From positions 1 to 51,998 of the IMG/VR virus record IMGVR_UViG_3300012358_000003: a DNA stretch of 51,998 bases; one strand, 5' to 3'. Position 1 is the first letter of the stretch. Each line of letters begins with the position of its first letter. Both the position numbers and the translations under genes were made by a program. Shown here one piece after another: positions 1,542 through 39,975 of this stretch. The notes under the pieces were generated by a model. It was not told the origin of the DNA. It made no database searches and saw only the letters and a program-made list of their open reading frames with translations. This DNA comes from a virus.

Positions 1542-4500
1542 ATGTCCGACCCTGATTTCTCTAAAGTAGTTCTATTACTCTCGTTCGATGGACTGGACGG
1601 TGCAGTAGTTACAGCTGACAAGAGTCCCGCTAATCATCTTCCTACCTTTCTAGCTAATGCCCAGATCGACACCGCCCAATCAAAGTTTGGTGGGTCATCC
1701 TGCTTATTTGATGGGGTCGACGACGCTATCAGCTTCTCAGACAGCAACGACTGGAGACTGTCGGCAGCTAACTCCGACCAGTTCACAGTAGAGGGCTGGG
1801 TAAGGTTCTCGTCTGTCTCAGGCGACCGCCACTTTATGGGTCAGTGGATCGCTGCTAATCTTGGTTGGAATATTCGTAAACAAAGCGGCGGTGAACTACA
1901 GTTCGGGTGGTCCACTGACGGGTCCAACAGCTTCACAGTTGTGACCGCAGGCGCTAACTTCGTCATAAATACCTGGTACCACTTTGCTGTCGAAAAGAAC
2001 AGCAGTGGCAAGATCAGGATCTATATCGACGGTGTGATGCTTGGCAGCAGCACACCAGCTGACTCGTCTATATTTAACTCAACATCCGCGTTGATTATTG
2101 GTGAAGAAACCACCCGTGATTTTGCTGGGTGGTTTGACGATATTCGGATCACCAAGGGTCTGGCCCGCTACGACTCAGATGCTGGGTTCGCAGTCCCGTC
2201 GGCAGCATACCCTACCTTTGGCCCGACAACTATTCTCCCTGCCCGATACTGGATGCTCCAGATTTCTGCCAACAACGGAGACGGCGTTGGCACCGCTATA
2301 TCTGAGCTGAAGTTCTTTGACTCGTCAGGGACCCAGATAAGCACAGTGGGCGGCACGCCGACGGCATCGTCGATATTTAGTGCAAGCTATCCAGCTTCAA
2401 AAGCGTTCGACGGAGTGACTACCGGGTTCGTGTGGCTGAGTAGCGGTATCGCCGCCACTCAGTGGATAAAGATGGACTTCGGTGCCGGTAACGAAAAGGA
2501 TGTCGCCTATGTTGAGATGGCTACTGAGAGTGGCCAACCTACCCGTGGTCCGAGGCTGTTCAGATTAAAGTACTCTAACGACGACGTTGACTACACGACT
2601 AAGTTTGATATTGTAGATATCATGGGTCCGACGGGCAATGGCGTCCGAGCATGGAATGGCGTCGCATTTTACGCTTTCCCACCTCCTCTAAAGCGTGACT
2701 GGCGAATTCGCACTGACACTACGTACCTAACATCTAGGATTAACGTCGCAGTTGCCGAGTTTGAGTTTGCGTTAGGAGCAGCTGGAGCGGACCAGTCTGT
2801 GGTTGCATCACCTGTCTATGGTGAGCTTCAATGGTATTCTAGTAACACTCCTGCTCTGGCAGTTGACGACAACACTGGTACGTATTGGGCAACTAACGTA
2901 GGTGCAACTGTTGCCGCCCCTCAATATTACCATGTTCAATTTTCGACAGCTAAGAATATTTCTGAGATACGCCTCAGGTCTAGGAACGACACTTTTCATG
3001 ACCAGATACCAGCAACAGGTGAAGTCCACTACAGCGATGGAACCGGTGGCTGGGTCTCAGTTGGAACGTTCAATTTTACGGCCGACGGTTCCTCTGCTGG
3101 TCAGGTTCACACTTTAACGACAGGGTTGGCTGTACCTGATCTTGTCAGTGTGTCTCCTGTAAATGGTCCTCTTGCTGGTGGGACGGCAGTAACTCTTACA
3201 GGCACCACCCTCCTTGGCACGACCGACGTCAAGTTTGGTGGGGTGTCGGCGACCTCTATAGTTGTCGTCAACTCGACGACTATAACGTGCGTCACGCCAG
3301 CACACGCTGTTGGGCTCGTCAACGTCGACATATTTAACCCTGCAGGTAACGACACTCTGGTAAATGGGTTCACGTATCAAGACCTCCAGACCATAGTGAC
3401 TCAGACCCCGTTGCTGGTGCTTGATGCGAGTAACCAAGCAATAAGGGTCACTCAGGTCCCGATGCTGATCCTCTATCAAGAGAAACAGCCGACGCGTGTA
3501 ACTCAGACACCACTGCTCGTTCTTTACGAGCCCAAGCCCGTCCCGCTACCTGGACCGGTAGTGCCTGAAACTTCTGTGTCTGAGAGCTGGATCTGGAAAA
3601 CCGCGATCAGCAGCGCTTTGACAAGTAAGGAGCAGCGCAGTCGACTGCGCGAGGTTCCACGGTACAAGATGCAGTTCTCGGTCCTGATACTTGACGAGGA
3701 GGACCGCGTCAGGATATATAACCTGCTCATGAGGTTCCTGAAGACTACTTTCACATACCCGTTATACCAGTACTGTGTCCAGCTGGATCAGGACGCAGCG
3801 GTCGGTGCGACGAAACTCTTCTGCGACACCACCAAGACTGACGTGAGAGCAGGTGAGTTCGTGGCCCTATATGACCCACAGTTGGAGGAGACAACGTACC
3901 TGCTCTGCACGACTGTCGACGTCGACGGGGTGAACTTGTCTGTGCCACTCACCTCCGGCGCGTTCACGTACATGCAGCTGTGCCCCGCGATCGACTTCAG
4001 GATCATGCCTACTGTGGGCCTGAACATGAGATCAGTCGACGGCGACATGTCGATTACTATGGAGAGTGTGAAGCCGCGGATATTCCAGAGACCCGGCGCT
4101 ACACCCACGTTGGCCACGATAGACAGTATATTGGTTGTGCCCGAGCGGCCTCTCGCGAACGATGAGGTTCCCGAGAATTTTGACATGGGCAACGAGTGGT
4201 TCGACAATGGGACAAGTGTCCCAGAGGTCTTTAATGAGTGGACTAACCCACAGACGAAGAGCACGCGGAAGTATGAGTTTGATCGGAGGGTGAAGGTCGA
4301 CTACTGGAGAGCCGTCTGCGATACGCTGAAGGGAAGGCAGAACGTTGCCCTGTTCCCGACATTCAGGAACGACCTCCCGCTGCGTGATCCAATGGTGCTC
4401 AACTCAACGAGCTTCACTACAGACAACATAAACTTCTTCCTGTGGTATCTTGACCAGAATTTCCGCTACCTCGCCATCAACACCGCCAACGGGATGAAGT

Positions 4501-5535: not shown

Positions 5536-8130
5536 ATGACGACGTATAGCAGCGAGCCCTTCACGGTCTGGTGGCCGAGGCCAAAGTCGAGTAAGACTGA
5601 GGCGAAGCAGGAAATCAAGAAGACCTACACCACCAACTATGTTGCTGGATCAGGTAAGAGTGCCGACGACGTCAGTCTGCCACGTATCGCTACAGGTGGT
5701 ACCGTCCCTCTGGTGCTCGGCCGCGACGTCGTCCGCAACCCTGACATCATGTGGTATGGTAACCTGAAGCCTGTCAGCAAGAGCGAGGTCACGCAGGATG
5801 TCGTGACTGACGCATCCGGCAACCAGACCATCACCACCACCATCACGACCACCGTCGTCGCCTACACAGTCGACATCCAGTTCTGCGTAGGTCTTGGCCC
5901 GGGCATGAGACTGCGCTCAATCTTCATCGACAACGTTGCCATCTGGACAGGGACTCAAGGACCTGTAAGATCGACCTTCACTGTTGTAGGCAGCGACGTC
6001 ATCACCGACGTCATCTTCGCTGGTGGCAACTTCGACCAGGCTGTTGACCCGTACCTAGATAATCTGATCGCTCAGGAACTTTCAGGCTACCGTGGCTACG
6101 CTTACGTGATCTTGAAGAGTCTCGACACGACGAAGCTTAGCAATATCTCTTTCGAAGTTGACAGGTATCCCGACCCTTTGGCGCTTGGCGCGAGCAACAA
6201 GGTCGGCGACGAGCTTAACCCTGCCTCGGCGATGGCTGAGATCATCACGAGCACGTGGGGTGGTGCTGGCCAGAGCGCGTCGATCATTGGCGCCAGCTTC
6301 GGTACTGTTGCAGCCCAGCTCTTCGGTGAGGGGAATGGCGTCAGCCTCATCAACCGCAACAATGTCTCGGCGAATGAGCTGAACTCGATCATCTTAGAAC
6401 AGATCGACGGTACTCTCTATGAAGACCACGAGACAGGTAAGATCGAAGTCAGCCTGTACAGAGACGAGTTCGACCGCACGAACCTGTTGCGCATATTCGA
6501 CAATGATATCCTGGACATCAAGCTCAACAAGACAGCCTGGAAGTCGACGCCAACAAGTATCAAGCTGTCGTACACCGACAGGGGACTGGTCTACAGGAAC
6601 GTGCCGATGGTCGCGCGCAACCTCGCCTCCAGCTCCAAGCTGAGTCGGTCATCCGTAGAGGTAAGTTTCCCGGCTGTAAAGACCGGCGCCCTTGCAGCAG
6701 ACCTCCTTTCTCGTGTTGGGACGAGCGTCAGCTCTCCGACGCAGCAGGTCACAGTAGTCACTGGTCGTAAAGCTGCAGGGTGCAACCCTGGCGACGTCAT
6801 CCTCATAACCTGCTCAAAATACAAGTACTATTCGATACCGGCTATCGTGCTTAAGCGCCGTACCCAACCGGTCGAGAACAACATGGTGACGTTGATCTGT
6901 AACGTCATATTGTACCCACACAACAAGGTACTGTTCGCCGCGCCTGAGGGCAGCTTCTTCGTCCCAATTGACCCGAACCCTCACGCTCCTGTCTCTGTGA
7001 AGATGTTCAGTGCCCCATATTTCCTGAGGTTCACGAGCACGTCCGTGAACGGGACGTTCGATTACCTGTCAAACCAGGCCGTGAGAGACTACACGAATGA
7101 CGTCCCAGTCGTGTTCGGTGAAGCTTACAATGCAGCCCAAGTAAAGATGGGTGGGTACTACAACTCAGGTGGCATAGACACGAGGTTCTACACTGGGCAG
7201 ACTGCACCTATCTCACCAGGTTTCGACTTTGGATACCCACTTATCGGGAAGCTGACAGGCACTATCGACAAGTTCGACCACTGGGATGGGAGCCAGGTTA
7301 CCATCACCATCCACGGGCTCAATAGCCAGGTAGCAGACTACGACTCTATCTTCAGCGCGTACCAGTCGGTCCTTGGCCAGACAGCTATCATCTGGATCGA
7401 CGACGAGATATTCGTGCTGGACCACGCTCGAGACTTCGGTAGCACGAGTATATTGATCGACACAGGAGCAGGCACACTGACGCTGACTGGCTGCCGCCGT
7501 GCGTACGGTGACACGGTCGCGCAGAACCATGCAGCGAACGCGGACGTCTACGTGACCTCGTTCACGTACACCACCAACTTCCTCTCCAAGATACCCTTCG
7601 CATACGCGACGACACCGAGTTTCAAGTTCGTTGGTGCAGCCTACCCGAAGAAGTTGTACACGCTCAGCTCCATCTCGACGGCGCTTGCCTACTCTGGTTG
7701 GACCACGAACGACAGGGCTAACAGGCCACTTCGCCCGCACGACACGAAGATCAACGCGGCCAGAGGCACGAGCACACCGGTCAACTTGACGCGTGGACTC
7801 ACTGCAGCTATAACTTGGAAGGTGCGCAGCCGCATCACCCAACCTGTCGGCTCAACCCAGACACCCTCATTCCAGACTGACGCGAACCAGGTCGGCGAGG
7901 TCCTTACAGGAAACCACATAGTGTATCGGGTATTCATCGTAGACAGCGCGTTGGTGTCTTGGGACTGTGGAACCACGTCAAGTGCGTCGGACGTCGACAA
8001 CAAGACTATCACGGTGCCTGCAGGGGCCGCCGCAGGTGTCGGTGAACTCTACGTCCAGTCGGAGTTCACGGTGACGAGTGGACTGAAGGTGTCGAAGTAC
8101 CAGGACCGTCTGCCAATAAACCTCGTTTAA
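5536..8130 (+). CDS. Tail tip / central fibre protein (host-specificity J-like)
   Basis: The product is 864 residues and starts 2 bp after the hub gene. It has a proline- and tryptophan-containing N-terminus, then 'PRIATGGTVPLVLGRDVVRNPD' (given in parts: PRIATGG, VPLVLGR), which is typical of the entry of J-like tail tip proteins. Regions with 'DGTLYEDHETGKIEVSLYRDEFD' character follow, as in hub domains that form a trimeric ring. The last 100 residues are beta-rich without a clear fibre repeat. It closes the tail operon and is followed by the lysis block. It probably forms the tail tip and contacts the receptor. Confidence 0.75.
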   Translation: MTTYSSEPFTVWWPRPKSSKTEAKQEIKKTYTTNYVAGSGKSADDVSLPRIATGGTVPLVLGRDVVRNPDIMWYGNLKPVSKSEVTQDVVTDASGNQTITTTITTTVVAYTVDIQFCVGLGPGMRLRSIFIDNVAIWTGTQGPVRSTFTVVGSDVITDVIFAGGNFDQAVDPYLDNLIAQELSGYRGYAYVILKSLDTTKLSNISFEVDRYPDPLALGASNKVGDELNPASAMAEIITSTWGGAGQSASIIGASFGTVAAQLFGEGNGVSLINRNNVSANELNSIILEQIDGTLYEDHETGKIEVSLYRDEFDRTNLLRIFDNDILDIKLNKTAWKSTPTSIKLSYTDRGLVYRNVPMVARNLASSSKLSRSSVEVSFPAVKTGALAADLLSRVGTSVSSPTQQVTVVTGRKAAGCNPGDVILITCSKYKYYSIPAIVLKRRTQPVENNMVTLICNVILYPHNKVLFAAPEGSFFVPIDPNPHAPVSVKMFSAPYFLRFTSTSVNGTFDYLSNQAVRDYTNDVPVVFGEAYNAAQVKMGGYYNSGGIDTRFYTGQTAPISPGFDFGYPLIGKLTGTIDKFDHWDGSQVTITIHGLNSQVADYDSIFSAYQSVLGQTAIIWIDDEIFVLDHARDFGSTSILIDTGAGTLTLTGCRRAYGDTVAQNHAANADVYVTSFTYTTNFLSKIPFAYATTPSFKFVGAAYPKKLYTLSSISTALAYSGWTTNDRANRPLRPHDTKINAARGTSTPVNLTRGLTAAITWKVRSRITQPVGSTQTPSFQTDANQVGEVLTGNHIVYRVFIVDSALVSWDCGTTSSASDVDNKTITVPAGAAAGVGELYVQSEFTVTSGLKVSKYQDRLPINLV

Positions 8131-8383: not shown

Positions 8384-8397
8384 CATTTAACCCAAAG

Positions 8398-8426
8398 TTT
8401 ACTTCTGATTACCGACATGATATGAT
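8398..8426 (+). promoter_or_regulatory. Promoter for the endolysin/spanin genes
   Basis: TTTACT (8398-8403), a 17-base spacer and TATGAT (8421-8426) with TGA directly before it (extended -10). The endolysin GTG lies 24 bases after the -10. The spacer resembles those of the promoters at 22487-22515 and 34685-34713. Confidence 0.7.
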
Positions 8427-8450: not shown

Positions 8451-9458
8451 GTGGCAGTAAAGTCAAAACCAGTTGCACGCAGTGTAGAGTCTCTCAAGGT
8501 TCTCCTAGCACAGATCAACGCCTTAGCACCTGACAGATCCAAAGTATCTGATGGCTGGATCGGGAACGCTGAACATATGGCTCGACACTCGGACCATAAC
8601 CCCGAGCCAGACGGGACCGTCGACGCGAGGGACTTCACCAACGACCCGTCAGGCGGGTGTGACTCCCGGAAGCTCTGTGAGGCGATTCTTGCCTCAAGGG
8701 ACCCTCGCCTGAGCTACGTCATCAGCAACGGTGAGATCGCATTCGGCCGCAAGGGCCCTCACCCATGGACCTGGCGGAAGTACACCGGCGCGAACGGACA
8801 CTACCACCACGCGCACGTCTCAGTCCTCGACGAGGGCCAGGACGACAAGACCCCGTGGAAGATCGAGTCCGCCTTCAAGAAGATGGTCCCCGCGCCCTCC
8901 GTGACCCTCACGAAGAAGCAGGTCAGCTCTGTCATGCACCTCGGGTCAAAGGGCGAGTTCGTTGAGACGCTCCAGAAGAACCTGAGGACCCTCGGGTACG
9001 GCCCGATCGCCGTCGACGGGGACTTCGGCGACGACACCGACAGGGCCGTCAAGGAGTTCCAGAAAGATCACAAGCTCAAGAGCGACGGTTGGGCAGGTCC
9101 AGCGACACTCGAGGCCGTCGGTCACGCCCTCGAGAGGCGGAAGACGCAGCCCAAGATCGACGAGGCCGAGAGCAAGGTTGCCGCCGCAAAGAAGGTAGTC
9201 AACGACGCTGCGGCCAACGGCAAGAGCGTCTCGAAAACAGAGTGGCTTGCAGGTCTCCTGGGGGCAGGAGGGACGGTCTCGGTCATCAAGCAGACTGCCG
9301 ACACGGTGACCGAGACCACTAAGTCGGTCAGTGACATGGTCGTGAGCCTCGGGCCATGGATCCTGCTCGGCGCCGTTACGGCCTCTGCCGCAGGCTACAT
9401 CATCTACGACCGCCGCCGCAAGCGCCTCGAGGCCGCCGCAGTCAAGAAGGTCCTGTGA
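8451..9458 (+). CDS. Endolysin: M15-type peptidase, peptidoglycan-binding domain and C-terminal membrane anchor
   Basis: The product is 335 residues with a GTG start, chosen because AGGAG lies six bases upstream. Residues about 35-145 carry the zinc-ligand pattern of M15/VanY-type peptidases: 'HSDHNP', 'DGTVDARD' and 'HYHHAHVSV'. These enzymes cleave peptide stems of peptidoglycan. Residues about 160-225 form a PG_binding_1 domain ('LGSKGEFVETLQKNLRTLGY', 'VDGDFGDDT', 'KSDGWAGPAT'). Residues about 300-320 form one transmembrane helix followed by 'YDRRRKR'. A C-terminal anchor is unusual for a soluble endolysin and suggests membrane tethering before lysis. The stop overlaps the next ATG (TGATG). 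Confidence 0.85.
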   Translation: MAVKSKPVARSVESLKVLLAQINALAPDRSKVSDGWIGNAEHMARHSDHNPEPDGTVDARDFTNDPSGGCDSRKLCEAILASRDPRLSYVISNGEIAFGRKGPHPWTWRKYTGANGHYHHAHVSVLDEGQDDKTPWKIESAFKKMVPAPSVTLTKKQVSSVMHLGSKGEFVETLQKNLRTLGYGPIAVDGDFGDDTDRAVKEFQKDHKLKSDGWAGPATLEAVGHALERRKTQPKIDEAESKVAAAKKVVNDAAANGKSVSKTEWLAGLLGAGGTVSVIKQTADTVTETTKSVSDMVVSLGPWILLGAVTASAAGYIIYDRRRKRLEAAAVKKVL

Positions 9459-22099: not shown

Positions 22100-22423
22100 T
22101 TACTTCGCCGGCTTGGCGGGGGCTTCGGCCGGGGACTTTTCGGCCTTCGCCGGCTTCTCGGTCTTCTCCTTCGGCTCCTTCGGCGCCTTGATGGTCTCGA
22201 TCAAGCCAGTCTCGGCGAACTTTGGCGCGTAGTAGGCGAAGATACGATCCGGCGGCTGCCGGGTCACGAGGGCGCCGGAGGCGACGACCGCGTCCACCAT
22301 GGCCTTGCGATCCACGTCCTTGCCGACGCCCTGGGCGAGCAGATAGTCGTAGAACGCCTTCTGCTGCGGGGCAATCTTCTCGCCTTCATTGAGCTTGCGC
22401 TTCAGCACAACCTTGTCGGACAT
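22100..22423 (-). CDS. Small protein with F-x-Y-Y domain and Lys/Pro/Ala tail (paralogue 1)
   Basis: The product is 107 residues from ATG 22423 with AGGAGA upstream. Residues about 22-80 are a helical/winged-type domain ending in 'RIFAYYAPKFAETGLI'; this motif recurs in the proteins at 24874-25542 and 38881-39189. The last 30 residues are a tail made almost only of Lys, Pro, Ala and Glu, like histone or nucleoid-protein tails. It is the only gene between a strong promoter and a terminator, so it should be abundant. DNA binding is a fair guess. Confidence 0.7.
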   Translation of the reverse strand: MSDKVVLKRKLNEGEKIAPQQKAFYDYLLAQGVGKDVDRKAMVDAVVASGALVTRQPPDRIFAYYAPKFAETGLIETIKAPKEPKEKTEKPAKAEKSPAEAPAKPAK

Positions 22424-22486
22424 AAACTTTCTCCTGTTTTGTGTGGTCGCCACCTTCATTGGTTGGCGATTTCTATTTACCTATAC

Positions 22487-24763: not shown

Positions 24764-24874
24764 CTAGACTACCGTCAGATTAAACAGACGGCAGGTAGCG
24801 TACAGCTGCTCCAATGAAGTTATCTTTACTCTCGTATCCCCAAGAACTATCCATACTTTAATTCGGTGTTCCAT
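24764..24874 (-). CDS. Very small ORF between the F-x-Y-Y protein and the primase-helicase
   Basis: The product would be 36 residues ('MEHRIKVWIVLGDTR...FNLTVV'), with ATG overlapping the upstream stop as TGATG and TAG ending five bases before the primase ATG. The spacing on both sides suggests a real coupled gene, but it is too short to judge by composition. No family recognised. Confidence 0.45.
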   Translation of the reverse strand: MEHRIKVWIVLGDTRVKITSLEQLYATCRLFNLTVV

Positions 24875-25542
24875 CACGCCCTCGTTTTCTTAGGACGCCT
24901 CTTTCCACGGACGATGAACCCGTCCTTGATAAACTGCGGCCTATAGTACTGGAATATGACCCATGGCTTCTGCTTCGTCTTCAGGGCCCTGTTGGCGACG
25001 AGTGTATAGATCAGTTTCTTGATCTCGTCCTCGTCCAAGAACTTCTTCCCGCCGTTGAACAGGGCAGTGAAGACTGTTCTTGCTTGATTATTGTACATGT
25101 TCTTGAACGCTTCCTCGTCCTCGGTGAGCTTCTGCATCTCGCCGAGGTTCAACTCATAGTTCTCCTTTGTTGCCACACTATCGTTCTGCATCCCTCCATT
25201 CTGAGGGACCGAGAGCCGCTCACCAATGTCCTGGAGAAACTGCCAGAACAGTTTTGTAAGCTCCTCGGTCCCGACGTCAGGAGCGACACTCTCATAGTCC
25301 TCGACACTGCCGGTCGCGCTCTTCGGCGTGTAGTCGGCGTGTCTGTCGTAAGTTATTCTCCAGCACCTCTCCAGGAAGCTGTGGTCGTGTCTCACTCTGA
25401 AGTCGTTCGGTGACTTATAGACGTTGGTCATCGCGACCGACTTACTGTAGTTTCTGGCAAACGCCAGTGATGGGCAGAGTCGTGTCGCACCGGTCTGCGG
25501 GTAAAAGATCACGACCCATTCGTTCAGGGGCAGTTCAGACAT
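24874..25542 (-). CDS. Protein with C-terminal F-x-Y-Y domain (paralogue 2)
   Basis: The product is 222 residues from ATG 25542 (GAGAG about nine bases upstream; ATG 25557 is an alternative). Residues 1-110 are unknown. Residues about 140-215 match the domain of the protein at 22100-22423: 'WVIFQYYRPQFIKDGFI' lines up with 'RIFAYYAPKFAETGLI'. The end 'RGKRRPKKTRA' is strongly basic. It heads the unit that includes the primase-helicase and follows its own promoter, so a replication-related DNA-binding role is plausible. Confidence 0.7.
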   Translation of the reverse strand: MSELPLNEWVVIFYPQTGATRLCPSLAFARNYSKSVAMTNVYKSPNDFRVRHDHSFLERCWRITYDRHADYTPKSATGSVEDYESVAPDVGTEELTKLFWQFLQDIGERLSVPQNGGMQNDSVATKENYELNLGEMQKLTEDEEAFKNMYNNQARTVFTALFNGGKKFLDEDEIKKLIYTLVANRALKTKQKPWVIFQYYRPQFIKDGFIVRGKRRPKKTRA

Positions 25543-25584
25543 TGGACGATCTCTCATGGACAATAGAACGATATTCCAGGGATC

Positions 25585-32721: not shown

Positions 32722-33041
32722 CAATATGTTCCTTTGGAGCCTATCTCCCTCTCGAGCGCGCGGAACGTGTAGACCTTGATCAGCTCCACGTGCATCGGCA
32801 CCATCTCCATGTAAGCTCCCGCGAGATCTGTGGTCCCAACCCTCTCCGTGGCGAGTGCAAGCATCTTCAAGAGGGCGGCGGAAAGGACCTTCAGCACGAT
32901 GGTCTCCGCGCCCGAAGCCCCCGGGGACACCCTGTCGTACCCGTCGTCCTCCACGTTCCTCATCATAGTGAGGACTATCTCGTTGCTCTCGTCCTCCACG
33001 TACTGCCACAACATCTGCTCTTCACTCGTCAAGGTCGACAC
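32721..33041 (-). CDS. Helical hypothetical protein
   Basis: The product is 106 residues from GTG 33041 with GGAG six bases upstream. Helical and Met-rich ('LSAALLKMLALATERVG'). No motif recognised. It overlaps the upstream gene by 20 bp. Confidence 0.55.
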   Translation of the reverse strand: MSTLTSEEQMLWQYVEDESNEIVLTMMRNVEDDGYDRVSPGASGAETIVLKVLSAALLKMLALATERVGTTDLAGAYMEMVPMHVELIKVYTFRALEREIGSKGTY

Positions 33042-33672
33042 TGTCTTCTCCGTCGTTTATGGTAGGGGGCGGTCCCCAGTCCTCTTCTTCTTCACTCTCG
33101 GCCTCCTCGGCCTCCTCGGCCATGATCTGGTCGCGGGTCTTGCGCATCAGGTCCTGGTCTAGGTGGTAGTGCTCCGGGTACGGGTCGTCCTTGTCCGGGT
33201 TGAACTCCTTGCTCATCCAGAGCGACGACTCAGGCTCCTGGATCAGCTTCGGGTTGACCACGAGCTTCCTCGTCCTCGGGTCGAACCACCACGGGAGGTT
33301 CGCCTCCCTGATCGTCCAGTGCATCGCGTCCGTGATCTGGGACACCGTGCGCTTAGGAACCGACGGGCGCTCGCCCAGGCTGGAGCTTGGAGCCTCGGCC
33401 TGGGCGATGAGATGCCGGCGAGAAGTCGACGCGAGTATGCCCTCAGGGGTCACGAACTCGTGCGCCGGCTCCTCGTCCGACACCTGGCACAACAAGACGA
33501 TACACCCGTAGGTCGTCTTCACGGTCGTGTACTTGAGGGTCCCCGCGAGCCTGTAGTTCTTCTGAGCCACCATCATGGAGACATATTGGTACGGCTTGAA
33601 TGACGACGGCACGCAGAAGTAGTCCCCTACTTCCGTGAGCAACGACCACGGGTACGTCTCATTTCGGGACAT
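33022..33672 (-). CDS. Protein with N-terminal GDYF domain and acidic C-terminus
   Basis: The product is 216 residues. 'YPWSLLTEVGDYFCVP' and 'VAQKNYRLAG' in the first 45 residues form a small beta domain shared with the protein at 36464-36724 and similar to the 'FPF...GDSF' modules of many phage proteins. The middle has 'RTVSQITDAMHWTIREANLPW'-like helices, and the end is strongly acidic (a Glu run 'AEEAEEAESEEEEDW'). Function unknown. Confidence 0.6.
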   Translation of the reverse strand: MSRNETYPWSLLTEVGDYFCVPSSFKPYQYVSMMVAQKNYRLAGTLKYTTVKTTYGCIVLLCQVSDEEPAHEFVTPEGILASTSRRHLIAQAEAPSSSLGERPSVPKRTVSQITDAMHWTIREANLPWWFDPRTRKLVVNPKLIQEPESSLWMSKEFNPDKDDPYPEHYHLDQDLMRKTRDQIMAEEAEEAESEEEEDWGPPPTINDGEDSVDLDE

Positions 33673-36463: not shown

Positions 36464-36724
36464 CTACTCCCCTAGTCTTGCCCTCTCCGTGATGGCAATA
36501 CCGTGGCTCGTGTCGAAGCCGCCCACCTCCACGAGGATCACATACACGTACTTTTCGCTCTCTTCACAACTGTACTGGACGTGAAATCCCGGAAGATCCT
36601 TGTACCGGTAGTTTCTACTAGCTACTATAGACTTCATGTGTCTGAGGCTCTCTATCCGTTTTGATATGAGGAAGTAGTCTCCGGGCACGCGAAGCATGTC
36701 CCAAGGGTACTTGATGTTTGCCAT
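36464..36724 (-). CDS. Small GDYF-domain protein, paralogue of the 33022-33672 N-terminus
   Basis: The product is 86 residues: 'KYPWDMLRVPGDYFLI' and 'VASRNYRYKDLPGF' line up with 'TYPWSLLTEVGDYFCV' and 'VAQKNYRLAGTLKY' in the protein at 33022-33672. It has its own promoter and is thus likely expressed alone. Function unknown. Confidence 0.65.
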   Translation of the reverse strand: MANIKYPWDMLRVPGDYFLISKRIESLRHMKSIVASRNYRYKDLPGFHVQYSCEESEKYVYVILVEVGGFDTSHGIAITERARLGE

Positions 36725-36762
36725 ATGATCAGGGTCCTAGGTTCTGGGTCTTTTACGGTGGT

Positions 36763-36791
36763 ATTATATCACGAGAAAATTGGGCAGTACA
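36763..36791 (-). promoter_or_regulatory. Promoter for the small GDYF protein
   Basis: On the minus strand TGTACT (36791-36786), 17-base spacer, TGA and TATAAT (36768-36763). Leader of about 32 bases with AGGA before ATG 36724. Confidence 0.75.
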
Positions 36792-37506
36792 TCAAGGTCC
36801 TGGGGCTAGTTGACACAGGTTTTTTCAAGTTTATACTCCTGTGCTCACAAGTAACTGCCTAAGTTATTGATTTTATTGACTTATCGCATATCACACACAG
36901 TACAGTCAAAATTTGAAATTGGTCTGACCCATTTGATGTACAAATATCTATCTATCGCTTAGTAGTATAAAGTATGATATACAATATAATATATAAAGGT
37001 GTAACACCATGATAATTTGTCTGTGTGTGCTGTGCACTTGTGCCACACGTGCTGTGCATGCACTTGTGCACAATATATGTGAATTAGATATTAAGATATA
37101 CTGTGCTAAGAGTGAGAACTGCTTCAAGGAAGACTTCTTCACACCTGGACACATTATTGTTACTAACAAGGTTTTCTGGAGGCCTATAATTCTTCACGAT
37201 TTACGACGGATGTCACTTCGTTTTACTCAAAATGCCGGGCCAAGGATGGATCGACTGGCCGCTTGCAAACCTGCCATCTGAAGCGAGGTCCCAGGCCCAA
37301 GATCCTCCAGCCAATAATCTCGAACAATCCTCAGTTTTCCTGGTCTTTTCTCCCGTTTTTTCTGGAATATTCCTCGGATCTTCTGCCGTTTTCGGCCATT
37401 TTTTCCGCGTTTATTTCCCATTTTCTTAGCCATTTGTTCAAGTATTATTGACCTGATGTCCTAGGGTCAAACATATGTCACTACAAGTCACCTCTGGGTC
37501 ATTTTA

Positions 37507-37570
37507 GGCATACTCTGGGTCACACCAGGGGTTTTATCAATGGGTACTAAGGGCCTAATTCCCTGGAGAC
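37507..37570. repeat. Dispersed hairpin element, copy 3
   Basis: GGCATACTCTGGGTCACACC followed by AGGGG, a loop of about 30 bases and AATTCCCTGG. Same orientation as copy 2 (13544-13609). The stem CCAGGG/CCCTGG is kept while the loop differs. A near repeat of CTCTGGGTCA lies just upstream (37491-37503). Confidence 0.6.
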
Positions 37571-37721
37571 CTGTGGACGTCGTTTATACACTAGGGACCA
37601 GGGCCCAGGAGAGTGCTGGGAGGACCCAGGGCCGGGCGCCAGGGCTCATCGGGAGAGGTCGGGGAGGCGAGGGGCTGCAGGGCCGTGGCGGAGGGTCGCA
37701 TGGGCCGGCGCGGTGGGGCTT

Positions 37722-37739
37722 GGGAGGGGCGGGAGGGGG
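37722..37739 (+). other. G-quadruplex-type motif
   Basis: GGGAGGGGCGGGAGGGGG, four G-runs with single-base loops, on the plus strand within a GC-rich island. It lies about 90 bp before the iteron array. Formation of a quadruplex is inferred from pattern only. Confidence 0.6.
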
Positions 37740-37830
37740 CCACAGCCAAAATTTGCGGCTGAGAAGAGATCAGGCCGCCTCGCCAAAGTGCCACAGACAG
37801 AATTTGGAGCTGCGAACAGTTGTACCTGTC

Positions 37831-37951
37831 AACGTTAATGGCTCGCTAACGTTAATGCCGCGTTAACGTTAATGGGCTGGTAACGTTAATGGCGCATTAA
37901 CGTTAATGAGTAACGTTAATGAGTAACGTTGATTTCGCATTAACGTTAACG
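37831..37951 (+). repeat. Iteron-like array: eight copies of AACGTTAATG
   Basis: Copies begin at 37831, 37848, 37865, 37882, 37899, 37912, 37925 and 37942. Spacing is 17, 17, 17, 17, 13, 13 and 17 bp. Copy 7 reads AACGTTGATT and copy 8 AACGTTAACG; the rest are exact. Several are extended to TTAACGTTAA. Related CGTTAACGAG sequences occur near 38048 and 38715. Such arrays bind replication initiators or regulators in plasmids and phages. Confidence 0.75.
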
Positions 37952-38107
37952 AGGACCTTGGGCGCACGTCCGACGTTCCCATCCCGGCTGGATTAGGAAG
38001 ATTGTAGCACGAAATTGTTAGTGAAGATACAGTGGAAGTGAGAACATCGTTAACGAGAGGTCGACGCGGTCGTCGACGCTCTATTAACCAAGATTCGCAA
38101 ACCACTA

Positions 38108-38136
38108 TTTACATGTCGTGCGTTGCTCTCTATAAT
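38108..38136 (+). promoter_or_regulatory. Promoter for the 38170 gene
   Basis: TTTACA (38108-38113), 17-base spacer and TATAAT (38131-38136). Leader of about 27 bases with AAGGAG before ATG 38170. Confidence 0.8.
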
Positions 38137-38169
38137 CTACGAGTAAACTGAAACGAAGGAGTTACCCAC

Positions 38170-38547
38170 ATGAGACACACCACTCTCGCTGACCGACGTG
38201 AGACTCTTCTCTGGAGAGACGTCGTCATCCAACCACCCAAACCATCGCTCTTGAGTCGCGTGTGGACTGTGGTTTGCTACACGTCAGTCGCAACTGCTGT
38301 TGGCGTCGCAGTCTTCCTCGTCACTCCAGCTCATGCTGGTGGTAGCATGGCTCAAGAGGTGAGAGTCGTACACGTCTCTCCCTCCGTGGTTCTGTATGGT
38401 TCGAAGTTGGATCGACAGTTAAAGGTTGACAACAATAAAGCTCAAAATTCAATAAACTTGGAACAGTTAAAGTTTGAGCATTCCCGTCAACTCCTCGCTG
38501 ACAAAGCCTACTACGAGAAACTTAAAGATCAACGCAAACATAAGTAA
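38170..38547 (+). CDS. Exported or membrane protein of unknown function
   Basis: The product is 125 residues. A basic start is followed by a hydrophobic helix (residues about 30-53) that ends in 'VTPAHAGGS', which fits signal peptidase cleavage after AHA. The mature part is about 70 residues, polar and helical at the end ('KFEHSRQLLADKAYYEKL'). It stands alone between a promoter and a terminator. Possibly an envelope-acting early protein. Confidence 0.6.
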   Translation: MRHTTLADRRETLLWRDVVIQPPKPSLLSRVWTVVCYTSVATAVGVAVFLVTPAHAGGSMAQEVRVVHVSPSVVLYGSKLDRQLKVDNNKAQNSINLEQLKFEHSRQLLADKAYYEKLKDQRKHK

Positions 38548-38683
38548 AACTTGACATAGTCCAACTTGCATAAAGTTGGACTTGTCTCATCTGTGACAGT
38601 TAAAGTTTTATGTAAACTGTAACTGATGCAGCTTGAGTCAAGATTGAGTAAAACTGTACATAGCCCAAGTTGTGTAAAAACTG
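38543..38683 (+). repeat. Imperfect direct repeat in an AT-rich non-coding stretch
   Basis: A 36-base unit starting AGTAAAACT at 38543 recurs at 38647 with about three-quarters identity (shared parts ACATAG, CCAA, TTG). The stretch 38583-38880 has no gene; it holds several TAAAACTGTA-like words and CGTTAACGAG near 38715, plus a short GAGC/GCTC hairpin at 38840. Confidence 0.45.
38558..38582 (+). terminator. Terminator after the 38170 gene
   Basis: AGTCCAACTT (38558-38567) and AAGTTGGACT (38573-38582), a perfect 10 bp stem with a 5-base loop, followed by TGTCTC. No long T-run. Confidence 0.75.
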
Positions 38684-38880
38684 TATGCAGTCGTGTACCA
38701 CACAAAAGTTAGAGAAACGTTAACGAGGTAGTTAAAACTTACATAAAGAACTATTTTCAAAAAAGTGAGCTTCGTTAAAACTGTAGCTGTAAAATTAACG
38801 TTTCGCTAATACGTTCACTATAAGATGTAACTATCAAAAGAGCAATGACGCTCTCTTGAGAACGAAGATGGAGAAATATT

Positions 38881-39189
38881 ATGGCTAAGAAAGTCGCTGA
38901 AGTTGTAGTCGTCGAGAAGAAGAAAGGCTGGAGAATTAAGTCGTACTACGTCGACTTGAAGGCCTATGAGGCCTCGAAGGCAGAACTGAGCAAGGCGCCA
39001 AACCAAGTGCAGATCATGGTCAACTACTTCGCCACGAAGTACGTCGACGAAGCGTCTGCTGCGCAAGGCCGAGTGATGTGTCAGTCTGCGATCGACGAAG
39101 GTGGTTTGAAGACCGTGATCGAGCCACACGTTCTCTTCGCCTACTATCGGTCGACGATGGAGAAGTTTGGTCTCCGCCTGCGTGGCTGA
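38881..39189 (+). CDS. Small protein with F-x-Y-Y domain (paralogue 3)
   Basis: The product is 102 residues with GGAGA upstream of ATG 38881. After a Lys/Val-rich start ('MAKKVAEVVVVEKKKGW'), the domain ends with 'HVLFAYYRSTMEKFGLRL', which lines up with the same motif in the proteins at 22100-22423 and 24874-25542. It is a single-gene unit next to the iteron array and followed by hairpins. A link to the iterons is possible but unproven. Confidence 0.7.
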   Translation: MAKKVAEVVVVEKKKGWRIKSYYVDLKAYEASKAELSKAPNQVQIMVNYFATKYVDEASAAQGRVMCQSAIDEGGLKTVIEPHVLFAYYRSTMEKFGLRLRG

Positions 39190-39210
39190 GTTAACGCTTC
39201 TCTAACGAGT

Positions 39211-39240
39211 GTGTGCGCCGGCGATAGTGCTGGCGCACAC
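39211..39240 (+). terminator. Hairpin terminator after paralogue 3
   Basis: GTGTGCGCC (39211-39219) and GGCGCACAC (39232-39240), 9 bp stem with 12-base loop, followed by TCACTAGTGA, itself palindromic. Confidence 0.65.
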
Positions 39241-39278
39241 TCACTAGTGAGCGAACCAAACCGATTGCACCTTGAATT

Positions 39279-39302
39279 GTGGAGGCCGCCGCCGACCTCC
39301 AC
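39279..39302. terminator. Second hairpin between paralogue 3 and the convergent small gene
   Basis: GTGGAGG (39279-39285) and CCTCCAC (39296-39302), loop of ten bases. CACTTTCAAAGTG follows at 39316. It could stop transcription from either side. Confidence 0.45.
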
Positions 39303-39368
39303 GGACTCCGCAGCCACTTTCAAAGTGTTACTATATAACATCAGGGCTCCAGGACCGCAACCCTCGGT

Positions 39369-39593
39369 TCATGTCCCACTCGTTCGAGACCCTAGGTCCA
39401 CCCACCTAGTCACCTGCTTCGCTCTCGCATGTATGTGACACACGCATATTGGGCCCCTCATCTGGTTGGCTCGACGCGGGCACCTGTGGTCCACCTGCAT
39501 CCACTTGAACACCCACGACGGCTGTCCCTTGACGAGTGCCTCACAGCGCTCGTCGTCTGGCACGTAGAATTCTGGTCCTCTGTGGTTAGTCAT
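39369..39593 (-). CDS. Small Cys/His-rich protein with its own promoter
   Basis: The product is 74 residues. 'RCEAL', 'HRCPRRANQ' and 'ICVCHIHARA' give a Cys/His pattern found in small phage Zn-binding proteins. The ATG at 39593 lies six bases after the -10 box, so the mRNA would be leaderless. The C-terminal end is uncertain. Function unknown. Confidence 0.5.
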   Translation of the reverse strand: MTNHRGPEFYVPDDERCEALVKGQPSWVFKWMQVDHRCPRRANQMRGPICVCHIHARAKQVTRWVDLGSRTSGT

Positions 39594-39599
39594 AAGATC

Positions 39600-39628
39600 A
39601 CTATATCACGCGATTATTGACTCGGACA
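39600..39628 (-). promoter_or_regulatory. Promoter for the small Cys/His-rich gene
   Basis: On the minus strand TGTCCG (39628-39623, weak), 17-base spacer, TGA and TATAGT (39605-39600). Strength depends on the extended -10. Confidence 0.55.
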
Positions 39629-39673
39629 CAGGCTAGTTGTACCTGACCCTCAAAATAAACACCATAAGACACG

Positions 39674-39702
39674 TTTACAGGTTATATTGGGCGTGATATA
39701 CG
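39674..39702 (+). promoter_or_regulatory. Late promoter for packaging and structural genes
   Basis: TTTACA (39674-39679), 17-base spacer, TGA and TATACG (39697-39702). It is the only promoter seen before the long run of structural genes. The weaker -10 could make it dependent on an activator. Confidence 0.65.
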
Positions 39703-39744
39703 TGGTCCAGGGTACAAATTGCCAACATATATGGAGCGGGACTC

Positions 39745-39975
39745 ATGACCACTACGGTGAAGGTGCACGTAAACGGCCAGTATCGGGCCACGGTCGTCCA
39801 CACCGTCGACGGAGAGGTCAAGGACACGGTCCTCGTCGGGCCAAGTGAGGAGAAGGCCCTCGCGGCGTACCACGGTCACACCAACTCATTCACCGTCACC
39901 GAGGAGTCTATCCCCGCGGAGGCGGACGAGGCCGACGAAGATGAGGCCGACGACGAAGACGACGAAGACGAGTAG
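39745..39975 (+). CDS. Small protein with acidic tail ahead of terminase
   Basis: The product is 76 residues with GGAG upstream. The first 50 residues are beta-prone ('KVHVNGQYRATVVHTVDGE'), the rest is Asp/Glu only. Position suggests a role near packaging or control, but no family is recognised. Confidence 0.6.
   Translation: MTTTVKVHVNGQYRATVVHTVDGEVKDTVLVGPSEEKALAAYHGHTNSFTVTEESIPAEADEADEDEADDEDDEDE

Follow-up and report, generated by a model that had tools for sequence, protein, structure and literature searches.

A compact array of short repeats lies in the single large gap between the gene arms of an uncultured tailed phage, which raises the question whether replication starts there or phage genes are regulated from there, and which protein binds the repeats. 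The window, i.e. the whole stretch of DNA that was analysed, is an entire virus record of 51,998 bp, whose ends share no exact repeat of at least 10 bp. Terminase, portal and capsid genes are encoded rightward from 40 kb, and the leftward arm carries genes for DNA polymerase I, primase, ligase and nucleotide metabolism. The original prediction described the repeats as a candidate replication origin or operator cluster in a long gene-free region, next to a G-rich island. The surroundings are indeed as described: the gap (Table 1) contains no family-matched gene, and its G-rich island (ca. 37.59-37.74 kb, AT fraction 0.23-0.33, i.e. 67-77% GC) forms the left flank of the array. A nucleotide search of phage records with the gap gave no match, nor did a comparison with RNA families.

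Three small ORFs beside the gap, encoding 86, 125 and 102 amino acids, have no curated-level match to a Pfam or PHROG family. For the 102-aa protein a confident small fold is predicted (pLDDT 81); a search for a known DNA-binding fold gave no PDB match (best Foldseek E 1.8). A paralogue gene had been placed 0.9 kb from the array. This distance fits the 102-aa ORF, which starts 0.93 kb away, whereas the ORF that has a paralogue is the 86-aa one (36464-36724), the last of the leftward arm, which ends about 1.1 kb from the array. It is a weak paralogue of the leftward ORF 33022-33672 (28% identity over 78 aa), and a second weakly paralogous pair is formed by 22100-22459 and 24874-25563.

Table 1. 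Features in and beside the gap of the window; L021, L022 and L025 are related contigs that carry the 102-aa gene.
Feature	Position	Strand	Remarks
Gene-poor gap, 1,445 bp	36725..38169		leftward replication arm on one side; rightward small genes and structural arm on the other
TAAGTTATTGATT, only perfect IHF consensus of the window	36860..36872		about 1 kb from the array
Promoter-like block TGGAGA-N17-TATACA	37563..37591	+	conserved; TGGAGA-N17-TATACT at 1155 in L021
Half-site array	37830..37953		15 TTAA-like half-sites, 37835-37949, steps of 11, 6 and 7 bp
Isolated TTAA half-sites	38050..38091		38050 within CGTTAACGAG; 38084 TTAACCAA; between array and next promoter
Sigma70-like promoter TTTACA-17-TATAAT (11/12) for the 125-aa gene	38108..38136	+	
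125-aa ORF	38170..38547	+	strong ribosome site; N terminus, by eye, signal-peptide/membrane-like
TTAA-N7-TTAA box, one mismatch	38709..38723	-	TTAACGTTTCTCTAA on the - strand
Box TTAACGTTTCGCTAA, covering the 102-aa gene's -35 region	38795..38809	+	aligns with TTAACGTTTCTCTAA in L021
102-aa protein gene	38881..39189	+	start 0.93 kb from the array; identity 66% (L021), 49% (L022), 44% (L025)
Box TTAACGCTTCTCTAA, after the 102-aa gene's stop codon and before a hairpin	39191..39205	+	aligns with TTAACCCTTCTTTAA in L021

Repeat searches, TRF among them, returned exactly the eight AACGTTAATG-type copies that had been claimed, with starts at 37831, 37848, 37865, 37882, 37899, 37912, 37925 and 37942 and successive steps of 17, 17, 17, 17, 13, 13 and 17 bp. 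When up to 2 mismatches to AACGTTAATG are allowed, all eight fall in the densest cluster, of 131 bp, and no more than 2 were clustered in any of 200 first-order Markov resamples of the window. The true unit of the array is the palindrome TTAACGTTAA. TTAA-like half-sites start at 37835, 37846, 37852, 37863, 37869, 37880, 37886, 37897, 37903, 37910, 37916, 37923, 37929, 37940 and 37946, giving steps of 11, 6, 11, 6, 11, 6, 11, 6, 7, 6, 7, 6, 11 and 6 bp. The 17-bp period thus consists of a TTAA-N7-TTAA box (11-bp step, the CtrA box) and a 2-bp junction (6-bp step), and the 13-bp period is the sum of 6 and 7; the junction of the 6-bp step is CG, which yields the palindrome. Boxes are found at 37835, 37852, 37869, 37886 and 37929, those at 37852 and 37886 being exact and the other three having one mismatch. 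The array belongs to a wider set of TTAA sites across 37.8-39.2 kb, and additional words announced for the vicinity are present as exact copies of CGTTAACGAG at 37944, 38048 and 38718.

CtrA is a response regulator that acts as a master regulator of the bacterial cell cycle. TTAA-N7-TTAA is its published binding motif (PMC9437464), and we consider it probable, from the spacing of the half-sites, that the array consists of clustered sites to which the CtrA protein of the host binds, the phage being one of an alphaproteobacterium. The closest parallel is the Brevundimonas phage vB_BsubS-Delta, in which a 1.3-kb gap between divergent arms contains 30 TTAA described as CtrA sites; CtrA shifts an 81-bp EMSA probe upstream of DELTA_120 and represses this gene (PMC9437464). 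The only 68-aa ATG-started ORF in the Delta gap, on the minus strand at gap positions 405-611, matches DELTA_120, so the probe should correspond to gap positions 612-692. This segment has exact-TTAA steps of 11, 6, 13, 11, 6, 11 and 6 bp and one TTAACGTTAA, and its three N7 boxes and two half-sites agree with the published description (PMC9437464). With the half-site definition used for the window, the steps in the Delta gap begin with 11, 6, 7, 6, 11, 6, 11, 6 and 13 bp. The array aligns to the Delta cluster with a score of 96; the maximum among 500 resampled arrays was 53. Similar to Delta, the window has a gap of ca. 1.3-1.4 kb between divergent arms with dense TTAA half-sites at 6-, 7- and 11-bp steps, TTAACGTTAA palindromes and TTAA-N7-TTAA boxes. 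Unlike Delta, in which 29 TTAA are spread over ca. 310 bp with CC, GG and CG junctions, the array of the window is compact, with a length of 120 bp, CG junctions and an almost regular period of 17 bp, and the tail, primase and helicase genes of the two phages are similar only at low identity. Opposite gene arms split by a gap, here of 1.2 kb, are also found in the Sphingomonas phage vB_StuS_MMDA13, where the repeats overlap predicted CtrA sites (MN820898; PMC7472734, PMC9437464); these are just four imperfect 12-bp repeats (TGCGTTAACCAT-like), unlike the 17-bp array of the window.

Counting of TTAA-N7-TTAA with at most one mismatch over the whole window and L021 showed that the boxes are concentrated around the gap. 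Ten of the 16 boxes in the window, including both exact ones, lie within 36740-39760 (3.31 per kb, as compared to 0.12 per kb elsewhere), five of them in the array and five nearby. With the array masked, the five remaining boxes compare to 1.2 expected, a number reached by 5 of 500 resamples; L021 has 13 boxes where 3.9 are expected (reached by 1 of 500). The class of low-positional-entropy phages (LPEG) with a CtrA-site cluster is delimited by H < 0.75 with more than 5 sites, receptor pili or flagella also being a class criterion. The window has H = 0.694 with 16 sites, as scored with the one-mismatch consensus and not with the authors' PSSM, and the lowest value among 2000 random placements was 0.812. 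The class is further marked by intergenic sites located in a gap or a terminal repeat and by an alphaproteobacterial host that has CtrA; the 10 clustered sites of the window lie in the gap or between small genes. Other permutations of TTAA at N7 spacing with enough sites are less concentrated except for TAAT, which is the array read one base on. As to the host, the best matches of the head proteins are Sinorhizobium and Rhizobium phages, and those of another gene are Brevundimonas and Dinoroseobacter phages.

The original prediction had asked for a comparison with relatives with regard to conserved spacing. L021, an 8.25-kb contig with the 102-aa gene and with terminase and portal genes, has arrays and boxes at the same place as the window, its arrays occupying 1421-1530 and 2878-3017; single palindromes are found at 3673 and 3806, and all of these precede small genes or lie between them. 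L021 also has an IHF-consensus site (798). About 200 bp of the gap (37399-37602), including the TGGAGA-N17-TATAC element, are 66% identical in L021, upstream of its first array. Two lone boxes also align between the contigs: the 102-aa gene has one at its -35 region and another behind its stop codon, ahead of the hairpin. The main array of L021, however, follows multiples of 13 bp with few N7 boxes, the other gaps being 34-48 bp. An initial view that N7 pairs alone count was given up for this reason: conservation concerns the palindrome more than the canonical box, and TTAACGTTAA is kept at three intergenic places of L021 even without N7 spacing. L022 and L025, more distant relatives, have no such sites, so that the control would be a property of this small clade. 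Among the isolates compared, no close relative of the window and L021 was detected. A second repeat family, of AGTTAAAGTTT and AAAACTTTAACTA types, occurs between small genes in both (window 38415-38680, L021 3627-3912), and in L022 a recurring promoter-like element, AAAATAGTTTGCCGC...TGTTTACA, is found ahead of several small genes (6000-8000).

A search of 2.9 million viral contigs with a pattern derived from the spacing in Delta and the window gave 16 stretches; 14 are outside any open frame, and in several the 6/11 or 6/7 rhythm continues past the 33 bp that were searched. With the pattern match masked, TTAA pairs at 6, 7, 11 and 13 bp numbered 17, 6, 4 and 8, where sequence elsewhere in these loci would lead one to expect 2.0, 0.7, 1.0 and 0.9. 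Four stretches come from two contigs of 322,272 bp (Caulobacter phage CcrBL9, 100% match) and 317,489 bp (putative CcrSC), and the Caulobacter phages of this group belong to the published CtrA set. Like the window they have tandem TTAASSTTAA blocks with half-site steps of 6, 11, 6, 11 and 6 bp; unlike in the window, the sites lie in terminal repeat regions behind hairpins, in much larger phages. Another stretch lies beside a terminase whose nearest match is a Microcystis phage, followed by Ruegeria and Phaeobacter phages, and one is closest to phages of gammaproteobacteria, so CtrA-bearing hosts are not demonstrated for all 16. Exact AACGTTAATG pairs were rejected as homologues of the array: the 14 viral matches, none of them arrayed likewise, look like chance or coding repeats. 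Among the papers listed by a literature search with the motif as letters, none was on a phage or on CtrA.

The palindrome itself leaves room for a phage-encoded dimeric repressor or activator that binds a TTAACGTTAA operator array independently of CtrA, which we regard as unlikely. Its unit is a perfect palindrome, kept in L021 in the absence of N7 spacing as described above, and a three-copy TAACGTTA pattern occurs in at least 120 viral stretches, with some non-coding operator-like clusters among the matches listed. These matches are mixed, many of them coding, so the 8-base palindrome is not diagnostic by itself; it is common in viruses for other reasons. The TAACGTTA array was not found in 80 capsid-related loci. 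The Delta probe, to which CtrA binds, likewise has the 6-bp palindrome step, single N7 boxes at -35 are compatible with CtrA but not with a palindrome binder, and the scanned window proteins include no family-matched DNA-binding regulator. The original prediction had named the protein of its third paralogue or a phage HTH protein as the binder; since the spacing matches that of host CtrA sites, such a binder is not needed. Its proposals of an operator cluster and of an ordered protein complex on the repeats agree well with what the spacing suggests.

Its other proposal, that the repeats are iterons at which a phage initiator binds a replication origin, gained no positive support, and we consider it very unlikely. 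The array does resemble plasmid and phage origin iterons in being composed of short tandem direct repeats; it occupies the only large gap, between divergent arms, and an AT-rich stretch (73% AT at 36900, ca. 0.9 kb away) and the IHF-consensus site are found at about 1 kb. However, the sequence immediately next to the array is G+C-rich, no recognisable initiator gene is adjacent, the gap contains no DnaA boxes (two degenerate matches occur in the whole window), and, unlike in iteron origins, the repeat word recurs, also as a single unit, before several separate genes of L021. GC skew was discarded as evidence for an origin: its raw minimum near 36 kb tracks gene direction and vanishes at four-fold sites, where no skew break is found at the gap. 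At the Caulobacter chromosome origin CtrA holds off replication, and CtrA-type sites, an IHF-consensus site and an AT-rich stretch do share the gap, yet a phage origin held off in this way at high phosphorylated CtrA is highly improbable, as there is no direct sign of an origin and the Delta cluster is demonstrated to act on transcription.

With CtrA as the preferred reading, we infer binding, host identity and target promoter as follows. Most likely, the cluster recruits phosphorylated CtrA of the host, by which phage promoters in the vicinity are controlled, so that the phage probably uses the host cell-cycle clock to time its genes. Binding to the boxes would probably be cooperative, with neighbouring dimers stacking, and nearby promoters would be switched with the cell cycle or motility state of the host. 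By analogy with Delta, the dense array may cause repression, and single boxes at -35 could mediate activation or repression. Candidate targets are the 125-aa gene with its promoter, the 102-aa gene with a box at -35, and the leftward arm. CtrA binding with a change in transcription is demonstrated for Delta, phiCbK and Cp1R7A-A1 only (PMC9437464). Phage use of host CtrA ('lytic deferment') so far rests on few isolates, to which the window and L021 add an uncultured pair; the locus looks like one more case of a type of switch already described rather than a novel type of replication origin. It illustrates that repeats arrayed in the gap of a phage do not have to mark an origin, and the spacing rule (17 = 11 + 6, 13 = 6 + 7, palindrome TTAASSTTAA) picks such arrays from raw sequence and predicts stacking of CtrA dimers.

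Outside the cluster, a one-mismatch CtrA-type box, TTAACCCAAAGTTTA at 8387-8401, overlaps the -35 of a good promoter, TTTACT-17-TATGAT, just ahead of the endolysin gene (8451-9458). Just six boxes lie outside the cluster, and the presence of this one may be due to chance; if functional, it would place lysis under CtrA. A wider scheme would couple several phage steps to the host cell cycle via CtrA: the array would restrain early genes or the phage's own replication start at high phosphorylated CtrA, the box over the endolysin -35 would time lysis directly, and the 6/7/11-bp spacing would serve as a general code by which CtrA polymers form cooperatively on the DNA of phages. As a whole, this scheme seems unlikely to us.

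Other repeats were seen in the contigs compared. A capsid relative (L097, 2520-2590) has a different tandem repeat, TGTTTCACG, with 12-17-bp steps. Dispersed intergenic NTAACGTTAN palindromes, often around hairpins, are numerous in the phage contigs L108, L173 and L205 and perhaps represent a separate operator system. In L126, L151, L165 and similar contigs, GTAACGTTAC repeats with 11-12-bp steps lie inside open frames of ca. 860 bp and are possibly origin repeats in a replication gene. Finally, an apparently unrelated phage contig of 118.7 kb (L186) has a 1-kb non-coding region (2690-3720) that resembles the gap of the window, with TTAACSTTAA palindromes at steps of 6, 7 and 6 bp and an IHF-consensus site.
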